Origin: Erysipelotrichaceae bacterium
Lineage (GTDB): Bacteria; Bacillota_I; Bacilli_A; Erysipelotrichales; Erysipelotrichaceae
DNA length: 48,025 bases
Assembly: GCA_013334325.1 (NCBI GenBank)
Contig: JAAXXT010000017.1
Location: 1 to 48,025, forward strand
Direction: 5' to 3'
The notes under the pieces are model-generated. The model had not been told where the DNA came from and did no database searches. It worked only from the letters and a program-made list of their open reading frames with translations. A program made the translations under genes and the position numbers. Shown here piece by piece: positions 13,045 to 40,371 of the stretch (position 1 is the first letter of the stretch; every line of letters begins with the position of its first letter).

Positions 13045-13075
13045 GGGTTCAACACAATGAAAGGAAATCAATGTG

Positions 13076-13672
13076 ATGAACAAAAACTTATTTAAGAAAA
13101 TGCCAAAAGTGGCAGTACTAGGAATAGCAGCAGTTGCTTTGTTTGGTAGTATTGGAGTAAATGCTTTAACGACAGATGCAACAGCGGGATCGACAACACC
13201 GGCTCCTACTCCAACGCCTACTCCTAAGCCAACCCCAACACCTACTCCTAAGCCAACTCCTACGCCTACCCCAACGCCGACTCCTACTCCTACGCCTACC
13301 CCAACTCCAAGTGATCTTGCTGGATTAGAACTCGCGAAATCTGTAGCGTTGGCTGATGCTGGACTTACGGAAGCTGAAGTTACTTTTAGAGAACTAGAAG
13401 CTGAAACCAAGGATGGTGTCGTCTTGTATGAAGTAGAATTCGTATCTAATGGTGTAGAATTCGAATACAAAGTCAGTTCAACAGGAGTCATCCTAATGTC
13501 TGAAAAAGATGTTGATGATTCAGATGATAAAGACGGTTCTGAACTAGAAAAAGACAATCACTCTATGGACGATAATTCTAGAGATGATGGTTCAATGGAT
13601 GATAGTTCAAATGATACTCAAGATCGTCACTCAGATTCTGTAGATGATCATAACGATCAAGATAGAGACTAA
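13076..13672 (+). CDS. Secreted PepSY-domain protein with Thr-Pro repeat and acidic tail
   Basis: 198 residues from the ATG at 13076; AAGGAAA lies 8 bases upstream, and a GTG immediately before is less likely. The signal peptide comprises residues 1-30 with probable cleavage after VNA. There follows a proline-rich spacer of Thr-Pro and Lys-Pro dipeptides (about 40 residues). A PepSY domain comes next ([21 protein letters not shown] ... [17 protein letters not shown] in outline). The tail is about 60 residues, very rich in Asp, Ser and His, with no hydrophobic anchor. PepSY domains are thought to inhibit or bind peptidases or act in sensing; the tail could bind metal ions. The gene sits directly after a two-component system and has its own promoter and terminator. 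Confidence 0.85.
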
Positions 13673-14437: not shown

Positions 14438-15265
14438 TTAGGCTTCATCATCCTTTAAGATGTATTGAACAGCGACACATCCTGGTCCACCTAGAGCCAT
14501 TAATACAGGTGAAAAACCGAGATACTCGATGTCTATATTACCAAAGCTTATTCGCAGTCGCTCTTCAAGCTTTCTCGCTGTATCTAAATTCATTGCATGA
14601 ATGATATAGATCTTATGTCTAAGACTGACTGCGTTTTGGGTCATTTTTTTTATGATCTGATCAAAAGCTTGAGGCCATGTTCTTCCTACCCCAAACTTAT
14701 CTAGTTTCTCCATTCCAGGTGTAAAGGTCAAGATGGGTTTGATACCAATCATACCCGCAAAAGAAGCAGCCATAGGAGAGATACGACCAGATCTTTTTAA
14801 GAAATTAAAATCAACAGGAATTAAAAAAGATTGACACTCTGTAAGACATTTATCCATTCTTTGAATGATCTCTTGAGGGCTATGATTTAATGATAGACGC
14901 TTCGCCAACATCACCAAATATCTTTGTGTCCCAACCAAAGCTTTTGAATTATACAGAATAAGATCTGAACTTAATTCTCCTAAGGCAGAAGCTGCTACGT
15001 CGTAAGTAGAACTTAAACCCTTAGCGACACAGATATGTAAACCTGATTTAGTGCGATCATAGATTTCCATCATTTGACCAATCGAAGGTAATGAAGTTCT
15101 CGCCCTTTCTGTTTTTGTGAGCTCTACGAAGTCTTCACAACTGATATCTAAATAATCTTTATAATTGATCCCTTTGACTTCTACTTGAAGGGGAATCAAT
15201 TCGATGTCTAGCTCTTGAGCTTCCTTTACACTGATCAAACTTCCAGTATCGGTAATGATTTTCAT
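14438..15265 (-). CDS. DegV family fatty-acid-binding protein
   Basis: 275 residues from the ATG at 15265, chosen because MKIITDTGS is the classic DegV N-terminus and AGAGGA lies upstream; the longer in-frame extension has no support. The lipid-contact motif RTSLPS is at about 61-66 and GLSSTYDVA forms the second contact loop. The C-terminal domain holds FNFLKRSGRIS and GIKPILTF, typical of DegV. Family members bind a single fatty acid and, as FakB, hand it to a fatty-acid kinase (FakA) for phospholipid synthesis; no fakA is visible here. It diverges from the purine operon leader; a TATAAT lies about 20 bases before its ribosome binding site. Confidence 0.92.
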   Translation of the reverse strand: MKIITDTGSLISVKEAQELDIELIPLQVEVKGINYKDYLDISCEDFVELTKTERARTSLPSIGQMMEIYDRTKSGLHICVAKGLSSTYDVAASALGELSSDLILYNSKALVGTQRYLVMLAKRLSLNHSPQEIIQRMDKCLTECQSFLIPVDFNFLKRSGRISPMAASFAGMIGIKPILTFTPGMEKLDKFGVGRTWPQAFDQIIKKMTQNAVSLRHKIYIIHAMNLDTARKLEERLRISFGNIDIEYLGFSPVLMALGGPGCVAVQYILKDDEA

Positions 15266-15412
15266 AAGAGTCCTCTTTAAACTATTATACATAAAAAAGA
15301 AAGTGATGGGGAAAAGGGACCTTTCTAAGAAATGAATCATCGATAAAACATGCATAAGGATGACTAAAAAATGTTAAAAAAAACGTCTTCTAGAGCCTCC
15401 TAGCCCTGTCAT

Positions 15413-15440
15413 TTTGGAGTCAATTATGGTAAAGTATAAG
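15413..15440 (+). promoter_or_regulatory. Candidate promoter of the purine operon
   Basis: TTTGGA, a 16-base spacer and TATAAG lie about 15-20 bases before the leader ORF and about 270 bases before purE. The match is fair rather than perfect. No PurR-type box (ACGAAC pairs) is seen nearby. Confidence 0.5.
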
Positions 15441-15458
15441 CATCTTACGGAGGACAGC

Positions 15459-15515
15459 ATGATTACCAATCGACTCAATCAGCTCCATGACGTAATGATC
15501 TTCTTAGGGACATAG
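15459..15515 (+). CDS. Candidate 18-codon leader peptide of the purine operon
   Basis: ATG at 15459, preceded by GGAGG at a normal distance, opens a frame that encodes MITNRLNQLHDVMIFLGT and stops at TAG 15513-15515. The stop lies inside the 5' arm of the following terminator hairpin, so a ribosome that reaches the end would cover the stem. The ribosome binding site can pair with CTCC at 15483-15486 (helped by TTAC/GTAA), and GGACAG can pair with CTGTCC at 15544-15549. These features suggest a translated attenuator. No run of one codon points to a particular amino acid. Whether it is translated is not shown. Confidence 0.45.
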   Translation: MITNRLNQLHDVMIFLGT

Positions 15516-15538
15516 GGCTTTTAGCGCCTGTGTTTTTT
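15510..15538 (+). terminator. First leader terminator of the purine operon
   Basis: ACATAGG pairs with CCTGTGT (7 bp including one G-T), with two further G-C pairs possible above a bulge, followed directly by TTTTT. It lies before the riboswitch, about 75 bases into the transcript. Confidence 0.7.
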
Positions 15539-15556
15539 ATTTTCTGTCCAGCACGA

Positions 15557-15628
15557 ATTTTTGTATAACTGTGGAAATACGGTCCACAAGTCTCTACCCT
15601 GACACCTTAAACGTTGGGACTACAAAAT
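15557..15628 (+). ncRNA. Purine riboswitch aptamer, guanine/hypoxanthine class
   Basis: The three-way junction is clear. P1 is TTTTGTA with TACAAAA. P2 is TGTGGA with TCCACA, closing the loop AATACGG (consensus GATATGG). J2/3 is AGTCTCTAC. P3 is CCTGAC with GTTGGG (two G-T pairs), and its loop contains CCTTAAA. J3/1 carries C at 15620 where guanine aptamers have C74 (adenine types have T). The base equal to U51 is T, which argues against the 2'-deoxyguanosine class. One change, C for T at the flipped-out position 48, is tolerated in the family. It should lower pur expression when guanine or hypoxanthine is abundant. Confidence 0.9.
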
Positions 15629-15690
15629 CAAACTAAGCTAACAAGCGTTTTTTTGATTTTTATGAGACATCCGGACCTGGATGTCTTTTT
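15624..15690 (+). terminator. Riboswitch expression platform with second terminator hairpin
   Basis: AAAATCAAA, which begins inside the 3' arm of P1, can pair with TTTGATTTT at 15651-15659, so this hairpin and P1 exclude each other. Downstream, AGACATCC (15665-15672) and GGATGTCT (15679-15686) form a firm hairpin followed by TTTTCT, ending only 5 bases before the purE ribosome binding site AAAGGAGG. The latter looks like the terminator. How P1 formation is relayed to it is not evident from pairing alone. Confidence 0.65.
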
Positions 15691-15707
15691 CTATAAAGGA
15701 GGATCTT

Positions 15708-16193
15708 ATGGATCAAATTAGAGTAGCGCTCGTTATGGGTTCCATCAGTGATTATGAGACAGTGATCGAAACGGTCAAAGTCTTAGAATCTTTTGGGATT
15801 GCTTATGAGAAAAACGTGATCAGTGCTCATCGTACTCCTGAAGATATGGTTCAATACGCTAAATTGGCTTCTTCTAGAGGACTACAAGTGATCATTGCGG
15901 CAGCGGGTGGGGCAGCCCATCTACCTGGGATGATCGCTTCTTTGACCACGCTTCCTGTGATTGGGATCCCTATCAAGACCTCTGCCTTGGATGGCTTAGA
16001 TAGCTTACTTTCAATCAATCAAATGCCTGCAGGGATACCTGTATTAACCACAGCGATCGGGATCGCAGGAGCTAAGAATGCGGCTTTAGGAGCCATTCGT
16101 ATTTTAGCTCTACATGATTTGGATTTAGCTCAAAAATTGATCGATTATCAAAATGATCTCGCTCAAAGCGTAAGGGACAGTAACTTTAAATGA
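15708..16193 (+). CDS. purE: N5-carboxyaminoimidazole ribonucleotide mutase PurE (class I)
   Basis: 161 residues, normal for class I PurE. The ATG at 15708 is set by AAAGGAGG at 15695-15702; an upstream in-frame ATG at 15681 lies inside the terminator hairpin and is unlikely. Motifs: VALVMGSISDYE (nucleotide loop), VISAHRTPE with the catalytic His, AAAGGAAHLPGM, and VIGIPIKTSALDGLDSLLSI. It converts N5-CAIR to CAIR, taking the product of PurK. It is the first structural gene of the operon and overlaps purK by 4 bases. Confidence 0.97.
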   Translation: MDQIRVALVMGSISDYETVIETVKVLESFGIAYEKNVISAHRTPEDMVQYAKLASSRGLQVIIAAAGGAAHLPGMIASLTTLPVIGIPIKTSALDGLDSLLSINQMPAGIPVLTTAIGIAGAKNAALGAIRILALHDLDLAQKLIDYQNDLAQSVRDSNFK

Positions 16194-17299
16194 GACAAAG
16201 AATCTTGCCTCCCGCAAAAATAGGCATCATCGGTGGTGGCCAATTGGGCCAAATGATCGCCTTATCAGCCATAGAAATGGGCTATCGAGTCGCAGTTTTA
16301 GATCCGGATCCATTTTGTCCATGCGCATGTTTGGCTCAACCTTTTATAAAAGCTGACTACACAGATGTGGTAGCTTTAGCTCAATTGGTTGAATTATGCG
16401 ATGTCGTAACCTATGAGTTTGAGAATGCGGACAGTGCTTTGATCGATGGGTTCAATATTAACGGAAAGATTCCCCAAGGGGCTTTAGCTTTGACTTTGTC
16501 TCAACATCGTCTAAAAGAAAAAGCTTTTGCGGAATTCTTAGAGATTCCTTGTCCTAAGTATTGGCCAGTTTTATCTCATAAAGATCTATTTAAACTCAAT
16601 GATTTTCCTTTGATCATTAAGAGTTGTCGATATGGTTATGATGGGAAACATCAATACATCATAAGAACAAAAGAGGATTTAAAAGCGCTTAAATTGGAGT
16701 TTCCTTCTGAATACATCGCAGAGAAATTGATCACTTTTGAGAAAGAGATCTCTGTAGTAGCGGCTTGTTTCAAAGATGGGATCAGTTTATTTGAGCCCTT
16801 TGAGAATGTTCACGTCAATGGGATTCTTTCTACCTCTCGTCATCCCGCATTGATTTCGCCTCAACTTCAAAGACAAGCTTTAGAAACCACTGAAAAGATC
16901 GCTCATGCGTTGGATTATATTGGGGTTTTGGCTGTTGAATATTTTATCAGTTCAGAAGGTCTTTTGTTTAATGAGATGGCTCCTCGTCCACACAATTCAG
17001 CTCATGGGACGATCGAAGGTTGTACCTTTAGTCAATTTGATCTTCATGTCTTATCGATCACAGGTTCTTCATTGGTTCAAACTCGCAGAAGTTCTCTAAC
17101 CATGATGATCAATATTTTAGGTCAAGATCTACCCTTAGCCCTCAAGAAATTTTCTAAATGTGATCCTAATGAAACACATCTTCATCTGTATGGGAAAAAA
17201 GAAGCTCGAGAGAATCGTAAGGTAGGTCATGTGACACTGTGTGCAGCGACTTTAAACGATCTTCAAAAGGATATCAATGATTGGAGGAACAACTCATGA
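16190..17299 (+). CDS. purK: N5-carboxyaminoimidazole ribonucleotide synthase PurK
   Basis: 369 residues with an ATP-grasp fold. The N-terminal GIIGGGQLGQM is the PurK hallmark; VVTYEFENAD, KSCRYGYDGKHQ and FNEMAPRPHNSAH follow the family order. It carboxylates AIR with ATP and bicarbonate to N5-CAIR. Its start overlaps the purE stop and its TGA overlaps the purL ATG, so translation is coupled. The last 60 residues are somewhat variable but the length is normal. Confidence 0.97.
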   Translation: MRQRILPPAKIGIIGGGQLGQMIALSAIEMGYRVAVLDPDPFCPCACLAQPFIKADYTDVVALAQLVELCDVVTYEFENADSALIDGFNINGKIPQGALALTLSQHRLKEKAFAEFLEIPCPKYWPVLSHKDLFKLNDFPLIIKSCRYGYDGKHQYIIRTKEDLKALKLEFPSEYIAEKLITFEKEISVVAACFKDGISLFEPFENVHVNGILSTSRHPALISPQLQRQALETTEKIAHALDYIGVLAVEYFISSEGLLFNEMAPRPHNSAHGTIEGCTFSQFDLHVLSITGSSLVQTRRSSLTMMINILGQDLPLALKKFSKCDPNETHLHLYGKKEARENRKVGHVTLCAATLNDLQKDINDWRNNS

Positions 17300-20200
17300 G
17301 AAGACTCTTTATCACCAAACGAAAAGGCTTTGAGCTTTCCTCACACGACTTAAGTCAAGTCATACAGAATCAATTGAATCTAAATGCCTTTGCGACACAC
17401 GTGATTGGCTATGATGTCTTTGATTTAGATGAAAACCTTCTACCTCAAGCCATCTCTTCTGTTTTCTCAGAAGCCATGTGTGATGAAGTCAGTTTTGAGC
17501 TTTCTGAACTAAAAGGAACCTTAATCGTTAAAGAACCTTTACCAGGTCAGTATGATCAACGATCAGATGCCGCAATCCAATGTCTTCGTTTATTGGATCC
17601 TTCAACCAAAGCTTCAGTCAAGACTTTCGAAGCTGTGCTTTTTGATCGTGAACTATCTAGTCATGAACGAGAAATCTTCACCCACTATTGGATCAACCCT
17701 ATTGAAATGCGAGAGAAATCTCTCACTCAGGAAATTCCCTTATCTGAAGAGATCTCTAATCAAGGTCCACTTAAAAACTTTACATCGTTTAATGAGAAAG
17801 AAGCCTTGTCTTTCTTAAAAGAAAACAAAGCAGCGATGAGTCTTTTAGATTTCAACTTGATTCAAGATTTCTTTAGAACCAATGAGAATCGTCAACCAAC
17901 GATGACAGAATTCAAAGTCTTGGATACCTATTGGAGCGATCATTGTCGACACACTACTTTTGAGACCCAATTGAGTTCTATAGAGATCCCCAGTGGTCCT
18001 TATGAATCTGAACTTAATGAAGCTTTAGAGCTGTTTAAATCCTCAAGAGAATTAACCAAACGCAATGAAAAGCCAGTGACCTTGATGGAGATGGCGACAA
18101 TCATGGGCAGAGTCATCGACGATCCTAGAGTTGAACACAGTGATGAGATCAATGCCTGTAGTGTAAAAATCAAAGTCAACACAAAAGAAGGCCTCATCGA
18201 TGCCTTACTTCAATTTAAAAACGAGACCCATAATCATCCTACAGAGATCGAACCTTTTGGGGGAGCTTCTACTTGTATTGGAGGAGCCATAAGAGATCCC
18301 CTAAGTGGGAGAGCCTATGTCTATCAAGCGATGAGGATCTCTGGATGTGGTAACGTCAAAGAAGAAATCAGTGAAACCATAAAAGATAAGCTTCCTCAAC
18401 GTGTGATCGCACTTAGAGCGACCCAAGGCAACAGTGCTTATGGGAATCAGATTGGGGTCGCAACGACCTATGTGAAAGAGATCTATCATCCAAAATATAC
18501 CGCTAAACATCTTGAATGTGGGGCTGTGGTAGGCATCGCAAAAGCGAGCTCCGTTAAAAGAGAACATCCTGAAGAAAACGATGTGATCGTGTATTTAGGA
18601 GGAAGAACAGGAAGAGATGGGATTGGTGGTGCCACAGGGTCATCTTTAGCTCATACTCAAAATTCGATGACACAATGTGCCAGTGAAGTTCAAAAAGGCA
18701 ATGCACCTGAAGAGCGTAAACTACAGCGTCTTTTTAGAAATCCATTGGCGTCAAGAATGATCAAGAAAGCCAATGATTTTGGGGCAGGTGGTGTTAGTGT
18801 CGCGATCGGTGAACTCGCCGATGGTTTGATCATCGATCTTGATAAGATTCCTTTAAAATACCTTGGATTGAATTCTACGGAATTGGCCATCAGTGAAAGT
18901 CAAGAAAGAATGGCTGTCGTTTTAGATCCAAAAGACGCGCAAGCTTTTATCGATATGGCTCATCAAGAAAATATAGAAGCTACTATCGTCGCAAACGTCA
19001 CCAAAGCACGTCGTCTTCAAATGTTTCATCAAGGCAATTTGGTTGTAGATCTAGATAGAAATTTGATAGACACCAATGGGGTCAGACAAAGTTCAAACGC
19101 GAAATTAACTCAAAAACCTATACAAGAGATTCATAAAACATCCTTCAGTGAAGCTGAAGTTTTGACTCATTTATCTTCATTAAATGTGGCCCTTCAAAAA
19201 GGTCTGATCGAACGATTTGATGGGAGTATCGGTGCGACTACGGTCTTAGCGCCTTTAGGTGGTAAACATCAACTCACATCTACTCAAGGTTCCGTTCAAA
19301 AGATCCTTCTTGAGAATGAAGATGTCTCAACGGTCTCGATCCTTACTCATGGTTTTATTCCTCAGCTTAGTGAAATCAATCCTTTCTTAGGCGCTCAAGG
19401 GGCACTTCTTCAATCCATCGCGAAAACGATCGCCTTAGGTGGTAAGATCGAAAATATCTTCTTCTCCCTTCAAGAGTACTTTCCTCGTCTGAATCAAGAC
19501 AAGGAAAAATGGGGCTCTGTCGTAAGTGCTTTATTAGGAGCCCTTAGTGTCCAGTCTGTCTTTAAAAGACCCGCTATTGGGGGAAAAGACAGTATGTCTG
19601 GAAGCTTTAAAGATATGGATGTCTTAGAGACCTTGATTTCATTTGCGTGTACCACAGCTGAACTAGAAGATGTCCAGACCCAATGCGCAAGATCACCTTT
19701 AGAAAATCTATATCTGGTTAAAGCACCTCGAAAAGCGAATGGCTTATTCGATCTAGAAGAAGTCATGAAAACTTATCTTACTGTTCAAGATATGGTTCAA
19801 TCCAAACAAATCACAGGGATCCGTGTTCTAGAAGAAAGTTTACTAGAATCCATTTGTGCGATGGTATTTGGGAATGGACTACAAGCGGAGATCGAAACAA
19901 AAGAAGACTTGTTGGAACTCATCCCATGCGCATTCTTGATTTCGACCCAAAGTTTAAAAGTTCCTCATGAATGGGAAAAGATAGGGAAAGTCTCTTGTGA
20001 TAAGTTTATCTTCAATGGGGTAAAAGTGGATTATGAGAAAGCGAAACACGCTTATGTCTATGGCTTAGATTTCCTTTACCCTGTAGTTGCGAAAGCTCAA
20101 AGAATGTCCTTACCATTACTCAATACGAATATAATCCCAATGACCTATCAAGGAGAGATCCCAAGTGTCATTAAAGTCGTTATCCCGTTTTTCCCTGGCA

Positions 20201-20967
20201 CCAACTGTGAAAACGATACTGCGAGAGCCTTCAGTAAAGCTGGTGGCACCCCAGTCATCATCGGGATCAGAAACATCACGAAGGAAGATCTCGAAGATTC
20301 ATTAAAAGAGCTCGTGAAAGCCATCGATGAAGCCCATATCTTAGCTCTTCCTGGAGGTTTCTCCTCAGGTGATGAACCTGATGGGAGCGCTAAGTTTATC
20401 GTCAATGTCTTGCGCCATAAGAAAGTCAAAAAAGCTGTGGAGGATCTCTTAAAAAGACAAGGTTTGATTCTAGGGATCTGTAATGGATTCCAAGCCCTCA
20501 TCAAGACGGGACTCTTACCTTATGGTCAATATCATCACTTAAACGAGAAAGATGCGACCTTGACCCACAATACACTTCATCGACATATCTCAGCCATTGC
20601 GATCACACGCTTGACCTCAAATGGTTCACCTTGGCTTAGAAATGAAAAACCTGGGACCTTATATCGAGTACCTCTAAGTCATGGGGAAGGTCGTTTAAAG
20701 GTCAGTCCTAAACAAGCTGAGACTTGGTTTAAAAATGGTCAAGTTGCGTTTCAATACGCAGAAGAATCAGGAGCCCCATCGATGGATCCTGAAGTCAATC
20801 TGAATGGATCTGATTATGCGATCGAAGGACTCTTATCACCTAATGGTCAGATCTTAGGTAAGATGGGCCATACTGAACGATCTGGACGAGATCTCGCAAA
20901 AAATATTCCTGCTTTGGAAGAACTCAAACTCTTCCAAAATGGGATCGATTACTTCAAAAAGCGCTAA
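17296..20967 (+). CDS. purL: Phosphoribosylformylglycinamidine synthase, single-chain PurL
   Basis: 1223 residues, the large single-chain type that joins the synthetase and glutaminase parts, so separate purS and purQ genes are not needed. The ATG at 17296 follows GGAGG. The synthetase part has TYWSDHCRHTTF, ETHNHPTEIEPFGGAST, GGRTGRDGIGGA and AIGGKDSMSG. The C-terminal glutaminase starts at about residue 960 (PFFPGTNCENDTARAF). It has the nucleophile Cys in ILGICNGFQ, and PLSHGEGR with later HTERS completing the amidase site. It makes FGAM from FGAR, glutamine and ATP. Bacillus uses the split PurSQL, so this form is a useful lineage marker. Confidence 0.97.
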   Translation: MRRLFITKRKGFELSSHDLSQVIQNQLNLNAFATHVIGYDVFDLDENLLPQAISSVFSEAMCDEVSFELSELKGTLIVKEPLPGQYDQRSDAAIQCLRLLDPSTKASVKTFEAVLFDRELSSHEREIFTHYWINPIEMREKSLTQEIPLSEEISNQGPLKNFTSFNEKEALSFLKENKAAMSLLDFNLIQDFFRTNENRQPTMTEFKVLDTYWSDHCRHTTFETQLSSIEIPSGPYESELNEALELFKSSRELTKRNEKPVTLMEMATIMGRVIDDPRVEHSDEINACSVKIKVNTKEGLIDALLQFKNETHNHPTEIEPFGGASTCIGGAIRDPLSGRAYVYQAMRISGCGNVKEEISETIKDKLPQRVIALRATQGNSAYGNQIGVATTYVKEIYHPKYTAKHLECGAVVGIAKASSVKREHPEENDVIVYLGGRTGRDGIGGATGSSLAHTQNSMTQCASEVQKGNAPEERKLQRLFRNPLASRMIKKANDFGAGGVSVAIGELADGLIIDLDKIPLKYLGLNSTELAISESQERMAVVLDPKDAQAFIDMAHQENIEATIVANVTKARRLQMFHQGNLVVDLDRNLIDTNGVRQSSNAKLTQKPIQEIHKTSFSEAEVLTHLSSLNVALQKGLIERFDGSIGATTVLAPLGGKHQLTSTQGSVQKILLENEDVSTVSILTHGFIPQLSEINPFLGAQGALLQSIAKTIALGGKIENIFFSLQEYFPRLNQDKEKWGSVVSALLGALSVQSVFKRPAIGGKDSMSGSFKDMDVLETLISFACTTAELEDVQTQCARSPLENLYLVKAPRKANGLFDLEEVMKTYLTVQDMVQSKQITGIRVLEESLLESICAMVFGNGLQAEIETKEDLLELIPCAFLISTQSLKVPHEWEKIGKVSCDKFIFNGVKVDYEKAKHAYVYGLDFLYPVVAKAQRMSLPLLNTNIIPMTYQGEIPSVIKVVIPFFPGTNCENDTARAFSKAGGTPVIIGIRNITKEDLEDSLKELVKAIDEAHILALPGGFSSGDEPDGSAKFIVNVLRHKKVKKAVEDLLKRQGLILGICNGFQALIKTGLLPYGQYHHLNEKDATLTHNTLHRHISAIAITRLTSNGSPWLRNEKPGTLYRVPLSHGEGRLKVSPKQAETWFKNGQVAFQYAEESGAPSMDPEVNLNGSDYAIEGLLSPNGQILGKMGHTERSGRDLAKNIPALEELKLFQNGIDYFKKR

Positions 20968-39064: not shown

Positions 39065-40344
39065 TGAAAAATCTAGAAAATATCTTAAAAGGCTATCCTG
39101 AAATCAACGATTATGTCATTCATTCACGCACCACTAAAAGTGCCGAATGGTTCTTCATCAAAGATAAACTGGACCAATCCAGAAGAAAAGAAGTGTCTTA
39201 TTCATCCGTGAAGATCTTCGTCGATGATGTTGAAGGCAAGACTCGTGGTAATTCTGAAGTCTTGATCTATCCTACCCATACGACAGAAGAGATACAACAC
39301 TTGATTCATGAGGCTGTCTTAAGTGCCAAGTTGATCAAGAACCAGATCTATAGCTTGCCTGTTGAAAAAGAACTTGATTTTAAACAAAACGTAAAAGAAA
39401 ACATCGTTGAGGCAGGTCTAGAGATCATTGACTTTATTTTCGATACCGCAAAAAAAGCCAAAGGCGATCTCAACAGTTTCGAAGTTTTCGTGAATCATAA
39501 TACGATGGAATCCTTGAATAAGAATGGGCTTCATATCCATTATTCTACCCAAGACTGTTATATCGAAGTCATCGTCAATGCGAAGACCTCTACTCAAGAA
39601 ATCGAGCTTTATAAAGAATATAATTTTGGATCGTTGAATAAAGAAAGTTTATTCAATCAATTCAATGCCTTGTTTATGGAAGCCAAAGATAGAGCTGTAG
39701 CTTTGCCTACACCTAAACTAGAAAAGGCTGATTTGATCTTATCCAATGATAATGTGGAAAGCTTATTAGGCGTTTATGAAGCGTCTACGAATGTTGGATC
39801 GCTATACAATCACTCCAGTAACTTTACAATGGGTCAGAACCTTCAAGAGAACTGTGTTGGGGATAAGATCGAGATGAAGATGTTGAGTAGTTTAGAAGGA
39901 TCTATCTATACTTCTCCTATTGATGAATTAGGAGTCATCCTGAAGTCTTCTAAGGTTATTGAGAATGGTGTCTTTACGAAAGCTTGGGGAGATGCGAGAC
40001 ACTCCTTCTATATGAGTTTAGAACCTACAGGGAATTTAAAGAATGTTCAATTTAAAGGTGGTAAGAAGACCATCGCTGAACTAGAAAAAGAAGACGCAAT
40101 CGAAGTCTTAGATTTCTCCAGTTTCATCGTTGATAATTCCACAGGCGATTTCTCAGGTGAGATCCGTTTAGGTTATGTCTTGAAGAATGGGAAGAAGACA
40201 CCTATCAGTGGTGGATCCATCTCAGGTAACCTATTAGCGCTTCACCAAGAGCTATATCTATCTAAAGAGACACAACGCTCTAACCGATATGAAGGACCCG
40301 TTAAATGTCGTTTAAATGGGGTCTCAGTCGCAGGACTACAATAA
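39064..40344 (+). CDS. TldE/PmbA-type protease subunit
   Basis: 426 residues, the TldD/PmbA family without the HExxxH motif, as expected for the non-catalytic partner TldE. The segment NVESLLGVYEAS lies where TldD has its zinc site; C-terminal features are NSTGDFSGEIRLGYVLKNGK and GGSISGNLLAL. Its start overlaps the stop of tldD by one base, implying a fixed ratio of subunits. It is followed by a terminator hairpin. Confidence 0.9.
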   Translation: MKNLENILKGYPEINDYVIHSRTTKSAEWFFIKDKLDQSRRKEVSYSSVKIFVDDVEGKTRGNSEVLIYPTHTTEEIQHLIHEAVLSAKLIKNQIYSLPVEKELDFKQNVKENIVEAGLEIIDFIFDTAKKAKGDLNSFEVFVNHNTMESLNKNGLHIHYSTQDCYIEVIVNAKTSTQEIELYKEYNFGSLNKESLFNQFNALFMEAKDRAVALPTPKLEKADLILSNDNVESLLGVYEASTNVGSLYNHSSNFTMGQNLQENCVGDKIEMKMLSSLEGSIYTSPIDELGVILKSSKVIENGVFTKAWGDARHSFYMSLEPTGNLKNVQFKGGKKTIAELEKEDAIEVLDFSSFIVDNSTGDFSGEIRLGYVLKNGKKTPISGGSISGNLLALHQELYLSKETQRSNRYEGPVKCRLNGVSVAGLQ

Positions 40345-40347
40345 GTT

Positions 40348-40371
40348 AAACGCCGAAAGGCGTTTTCTTTT
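40348..40371 (+). terminator. Intrinsic terminator of the tldD-tldE operon
   Basis: AAACGCC-GAAA-GGCGTTT forms a GNRA-capped stem followed by TCTTTTT. Confidence 0.88.

Follow-up and report, generated by a model that had tools for sequence, protein, structure and literature searches.

Control of the operons for de novo purine synthesis in Bacillota is usually attributed to PurR, to guanine riboswitches or to PRPP aptamers. In E. coli, the pyrBI attenuator is both UTP-sensitive and ribosome-coupled. Leader-ORF attenuation, guanine riboswitches and pairs of a riboswitch and an upstream ORF (uORF) are already known. Candidate uORFs have been described at fthC in Streptococcus and at ilvB in Corynebacterium, the latter using Ile/Leu/Val codons (PMC11109978). 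When a stop codon was moved to 5 bp before a terminator in E. coli, termination dropped from ~90% to <10%, an effect abolished without translation (PMC4824070); by analogy, the same suppression would be expected with a stop codon inside the 5' arm of a terminator. Bacillota are classed as runaway transcribers whose ribosomes usually lag behind the polymerase (PMC13323073), so that a ribosome-operated terminator would be unexpected there and early ribosome loading would be its critical step.

The leader analysed here fills the gap between a divergent DegV-family gene (14438-15268, minus strand) and purE in the window (the whole stretch of 48,025 nucleotides that was analysed). On the plus strand, a -10-like element, a Shine-Dalgarno (SD) sequence, an 18-codon ORF, terminator 1, a guanine aptamer and terminator 2 follow one another ahead of purE (Table 1). 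The original prediction had proposed two terminators separated by a guanine aptamer, and an SD-equipped 18-codon ORF whose stop codon lies in the stem of the first hairpin; all of these elements were present at approximately the coordinates proposed. The ORF starts with the ATG at 15459 and stops at a TAG (15513-15515) within the 5' arm of terminator 1. The strands of this terminator, ACATAGGGC (15510-15518) and GCGCCUGUGU (15524-15533), are separated by UUUUA, contain one bulged G and are followed by a U-tract; the bulge is probably the reason why a generic terminator scan missed it. The aptamer scored above the RF00167 gathering cut-off of 37, and its J3/1 sequence GACUAC (15618-15623) carries a C at the specificity position, which we take to assign it to the guanine type. 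The -10-like element would place the start of transcription near 15441-15443. The motif TGnTAAAnT is kept at the same place in genera g1 (the genus of the window), g8 and g62, and the presence of an extended -10 element just 5' of the ORF in related genera makes it most likely that transcription starts before terminator 1.

Table 1. Features of the purE leader (positions in the window)
Feature	Position	Strand	Evidence
Extended -10 promoter-like element TATGGTAAAGT	15425-15435	+	Sequence
5' arm UUACG of the helix covering the ribosome-binding site	15445-15449	+	MFE fold
Shine-Dalgarno GGAGG of the leader ORF	15449-15453	+	Sequence; invariant in 9 sequences from 3 genera
Leader ORF, 18 codons, MITNRLNQLHDVMIFLGT	15459-15515	+	Sequence; relatives keep frame and stop position, peptide weakly
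3' arm CGUAA of the same helix, within the ORF	15491-15495	+	MFE fold
Terminator 1 (hairpin 15510-15533 plus U-tract)	15510-15543	+	Fold, -12.0 kcal/mol; conserved in g1, g8 and g62
Guanine-type purine riboswitch aptamer	15541-15642	+	RF00167, 66.5 bits, E 1.4e-9
Candidate antiterminator hairpin that shares the 3' strand of aptamer P1	15622-15660	+	Fold; counterpart hairpins in relatives; role inferred
Terminator 2, riboswitch expression platform (hairpin 15664-15687)	15664-15692	+	Terminator scan and fold; present in relatives
purE, first gene of the pur operon	15708-16193	+	PF00731, neighbours, ORFs

The operon has the order purE-K-L-C-F-M-N-H-D. Its FGAM synthase (17281-20967, a frame of 1228 aa) is a long single chain that includes a glutaminase domain, unlike the split PurSLQ form of Bacillus. 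Directly after purD, the cluster encodes a putative Imm-5-like immunity protein (PF21805, 27518-27973), and a secreted-looking protein with a long Thr-Pro repeat is encoded at 13073-13672.

Several other kinds of control were considered and rejected. A second known aptamer in the first module was not found, as no credible Rfam family other than Purine matched the leader even at E 5, and neither PRPP nor any other ykkC-like family appeared at that threshold. PurR is a protein of ~280 aa; the PF09182 matches in relatives lay nearly all in frames of ~500-720 aa, and the genome of the window (G000) gave only a sub-cut-off match, in a frame of 666 aa. An antiterminator formed by 15399-15410 (CCUAGCCCUGUC) would be placed 5' of the promoter, and genome G001 has not kept this sequence.

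The prediction had made its case depend on conservation of the ORF and hairpin in relatives. We found purE in 159 of 273 genomes of the family, mostly drafts, and read ~95 of its upstream regions; several ORF starts were set by eye, and in some relatives the aptamer was called by pattern, which missed a few aptamers detectable with Rfam. The unit of ORF and terminator is kept within the genus of the window and in other genera, whether or not a riboswitch accompanies it. Among genera with any leader, most have ahead of purE a short ORF that is led by an SD sequence and stops at or within a terminator; the unit recurs in dozens of genera in three arrangements. It lies before the guanine aptamer in g1, g8, g62, g75, g73, g63, g56, g53, g21, g20, g72 and g18, and after it in g15, g7, g46, g69, g47, g70, g25, g13, g49, g52 and part of g51. 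It stands without an aptamer in g29, g61, g22, g23, g2, g74, g45, g12, g28, g59, g4 and part of g67, the absence having been checked with Rfam for most of this group. In genus g8 the ORF ends ~14 nt short of the hairpin, and the leader ORF is absent from three genomes of the window's genus that have purE and the riboswitch (G004, G005 and G007). To judge from these leaders, the arrangement in the window is not peculiar to it and is one of several used across the family; the swapped order and the stand-alone units show that the ORF-terminator and the riboswitch are independent modules. The second input that had been predicted stands, well supported, as architecture, the ORF-in-terminator unit being conserved and riboswitch-independent; candidates for that input are NTP supply, a ligand or protein acting on the start-codon hairpin, and initiation capacity (fMet, formyl-folate).

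The unit is also restricted in its genomic surroundings. A covariance model of the window leader found one real copy in the whole of its own 1.95-Mb genome, and weakly detected the purE leaders of three genera outside the training set (G026, G153 and G259). The same genome has a second guanine-class riboswitch (contig 40, L250:15992-16093) before an NCS2-type permease, named from its sequence, and no leader ORF was seen there, which ties the first gate to purine synthesis rather than to salvage. Comparable combinations of ORF and terminator in front of genes were few in a scan of 640 kb of this genome, no more than a handful. In the window at 40305-40349, another SD-led ORF, of 14 codons, ends at a terminator hairpin ~84 bases before a gene of 448 aa, and similar pairs lie near genes L218:12332 and L249:13425; these could be chance pairs or further leader attenuators.

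Other elements were also seen upstream of purE. ZTP riboswitches (RF01750, 55-60 bits) precede it in genus g19 and in one g50 genome (L026, L102, L105 and L110), so that within one family the same operon would be under guanine, ZTP or leader-ORF control. In three genomes of genus g50 (L109 in G099, L112 in G090 and L113 in G081), an element, ...GAACAACUGA.CGCCG.CC..., is conserved within the last ~140 bases before purE, with a terminator downstream of it; the element had no useful Rfam match in these genomes and is possibly an unrecognised regulatory RNA.

The position of the stop codon was assessed in 47 leaders, each representing a genus-level lineage, by asking whether a ribosome reading in frame would first meet a stop codon within the stretch from 6 nt ahead of the terminator stem to its loop. 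This was the case in 40 of the 47, against 7.7 expected from shuffled sequence (Poisson-binomial P ~3e-25, a nominal value that is optimistic because some starts were picked by eye with the ORF layout and the criterion in view; the effect is still large). The distance from the ATG to the start of the stem is 41-58 nt throughout. It might be argued that the ORF is incidental, terminator 1 being plain or controlled otherwise and the stop codon lying there by chance, since peptide conservation is weak and short ORFs are common in AT-rich DNA; however, the excess of stop codons in place, the constant spacing, the SD sequence and the occlusion of the ribosome-binding site by covarying structures (below) leave this account with a very slim chance of being right.

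The sequence of the peptide appears to matter much less than the frame. Leader peptides differ between genera, and single changes between close pairs comprised 11 synonymous and 18 non-synonymous ones (11/29, with 6.8 synonymous expected; p 0.058, not significant). The conserved placement of the stop codon, together with this weak synonymous excess, suggests that frame and position are kept and the peptide product much less so. A function of the peptide itself was rejected, as the peptides vary by genus and the synonymous excess is not significant. With a peptide that is not conserved, what matters would be translation and its position rather than the product. Classical amino-acid attenuation, in which stalling of the ribosome at particular codons decides whether the antiterminator or the terminator forms, would fit the combination of leader ORF and terminator, the layout of trp and his, and Phe occurs in 38 of 44 leader peptides. 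However, these Phe codons come mostly from the pyrimidine-rich pairing arm or from U-runs. The 44 peptides have no run of codons for a regulated amino acid in common, and glycine (1.0%), aspartate (2.4%) and glutamine (3.1%) codons are not enriched among them; on this composition, we regard stalling at specific codons as highly improbable. No pairing of an antiterminator with the 5' arm of the terminator was noticed in the folds or on inspection by eye. Many leaders (for example L011, L021, L068 and L106) have runs of 5-7 U, which give rise to Phe codons, either within the loop of the terminator or immediately ahead of the first terminator; these runs are possible pause sites.

The SD-blocking pairing that had been proposed was recovered in the MFE fold, where the helix adjoins and overlaps the SD sequence. 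In window-like leaders generally, the 5' end of the RNA and the SD sequence pair with the distal part of the ORF (for example GUGAAAAGGA/UCCUUUUUAC and GUGAGAGGGC/GCUCUUUUAC), and across 18 lineages the energy of this pairing is better than in dinucleotide shuffles (combined p 3e-7). The helix of the window itself has 5 bp and is unexceptional by energy alone (p 0.26), and its support is comparative: the arms UUAC and GUAA are invariant in the 9 sequences from g1, g8 and g62, and the ORF sequence between them is unrelated. Sister genera have instead a local hairpin with the AUG at its apex, A[UGGUCU]U, which occludes the start codon. Its stem changes on both sides (18 double-changed cells), with a covariation score of 0.315 compared to 0.121 +/- 0.025 for shuffles and at most 0.157 for slid controls. 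A model of this hairpin matched 35 of 316 genomes of the order, once in each, and all 34 of the matches that could be located lay 76-517 bp upstream of purE. Folding of successive prefixes of the RNA predicted, in most of 19 leaders, that the ribosome-binding site or AUG is open early and loses accessibility when 24-42 nt beyond the start codon have been made, a drop that precedes completion of terminator 1. In the window, the predicted change is mainly at the AUG (from 0.9 to 0.34), the accessibility of the SD sequence being little altered.

These structures could also be a binding site. A purine-pathway signal may be sensed by a protein or small molecule that binds the hairpin at the ribosome-binding site or start codon and gates translation of the ORF, which would then be the output stage controlling terminator 1. 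The sister hairpin keeps its loop UGGUC(U/A) at the sequence level while its stem covaries and is found only at purE, and in window-type leaders CAU.UUACGGAGG is invariant across three genera. However, the hairpin is small for an aptamer, the loop contains the start codon and is constrained in sequence anyway, no motif is common to window-type and sister-type leaders, and no Rfam family matches; we consider a binding site possible but doubtful. Start-codon occlusion would also render initiation rate-limiting, and attenuator 1 might then read initiation capacity, that is formyl-methionyl-tRNA and hence 10-formyl-tetrahydrofolate, with poor initiation leaving terminator 1 intact. 10-Formyl-tetrahydrofolate is a one-carbon donor used twice in purine synthesis. 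A comparable leader ORF precedes fthC in Streptococcus, for which an fMet-tRNA initiation signal was proposed by the authors (PMC11109978); such a signal seems unlikely here.

Combined, the comparisons establish, at the level of sequence, the ORF, its stop codon in the hairpin, the fixed spacing and the occlusion of the ribosome-binding site or start codon, and they show that the unit is confined to the pur operon and does not depend on the riboswitch. With reasonable confidence, we read the leader as two independent attenuators in series, a terminator operated by the ribosome followed by a guanine riboswitch. We infer that the ORF is translated and that translation, rather than its absence, gives read-through. 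A ribosome that loads early and reaches the stop codon would cover the 5' arm of terminator 1 and allow the polymerase to read through; without timely translation, pairing would close the ribosome-binding site of the ORF, terminator 1 would fold and transcription would stop. At attenuator 2, the guanine-bound riboswitch would terminate, and the pur genes would be made only when both gates have been passed. Their expression would probably depend in this way on two checks that act independently, the first responding to translation and not to a metabolite. Our leading idea for the signal at the first gate, held tentatively, is a race: a polymerase slowed by low ATP or GTP would delay the emergence of the occluding arm long enough for the ribosome to load, and attenuator 1 would be tuned by this step as a purine counterpart of the pyrBI logic. 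A more speculative extension is that nucleotide supply could be sensed without any aptamer, the time taken by the polymerase over ~40 nt deciding whether a ribosome occupies the ORF before the site closes and hence whether the terminator is blocked.

No other element was seen ahead of purE as widely in this family as the leader ORF, which takes the place of the riboswitch or accompanies it on either side. If the proposed mechanism is true, intrinsic termination can be governed by where the ribosome stands, in a lineage presumed not to couple transcription and translation tightly, and the leader would be a simple, testable candidate for sensing of NTPs or translation capacity. Our search of openly accessible papers turned up no leader-ORF attenuator described at a purine operon, and none placed in series with a guanine riboswitch. 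The window leader has the general layout of such attenuators, with an SD-led short ORF that overlaps a terminator before an operon and is conserved in relatives. In the vmlR leader of B. subtilis, also a Bacillota species, a leader ORF likewise controls an intrinsic terminator, but induction is by antibiotic-stalled ribosomes through an antiterminator (PMC9226507). The B12 riboswitch and Mbox uORFs of M. tuberculosis similarly join a riboswitch and a leader ORF in one 5' leader; there, the riboswitch is described as interacting with or controlling uORF translation (PMC11260477, PMC12810186), whereas the modules here are separate and swap their order. Guanine-PRPP tandem riboswitches also subject purine genes to two inputs that include a guanine aptamer, but both are aptamers sharing one terminator (PMC5912903, PMC9481103), while in the window a leader ORF, predicted to be translated, would supply the second input through a terminator of its own; neither "leader peptide" nor "uORF" is a term used in the review of the tandem riboswitches. 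The fthC and ilvB uORFs share the short ORF, the stop codon in or near hairpins and the intrinsic terminator, and fthC touches one-carbon metabolism; they belong to other genes and lineages, with no riboswitch partner described (PMC11109978). With pyrBI, the leader has in common that a translating ribosome on the leader ORF would block the terminator hairpin, antiterminator and amino-acid codons not being needed, and its stop codon in the 5' arm is a placement of the pyrBI type. It differs from pyrBI in that an NTP response is hypothetical here, and in its purine genes, its occurrence in Bacillota, the occlusion of the ribosome-binding site and start codon, and the guanine riboswitch in series.
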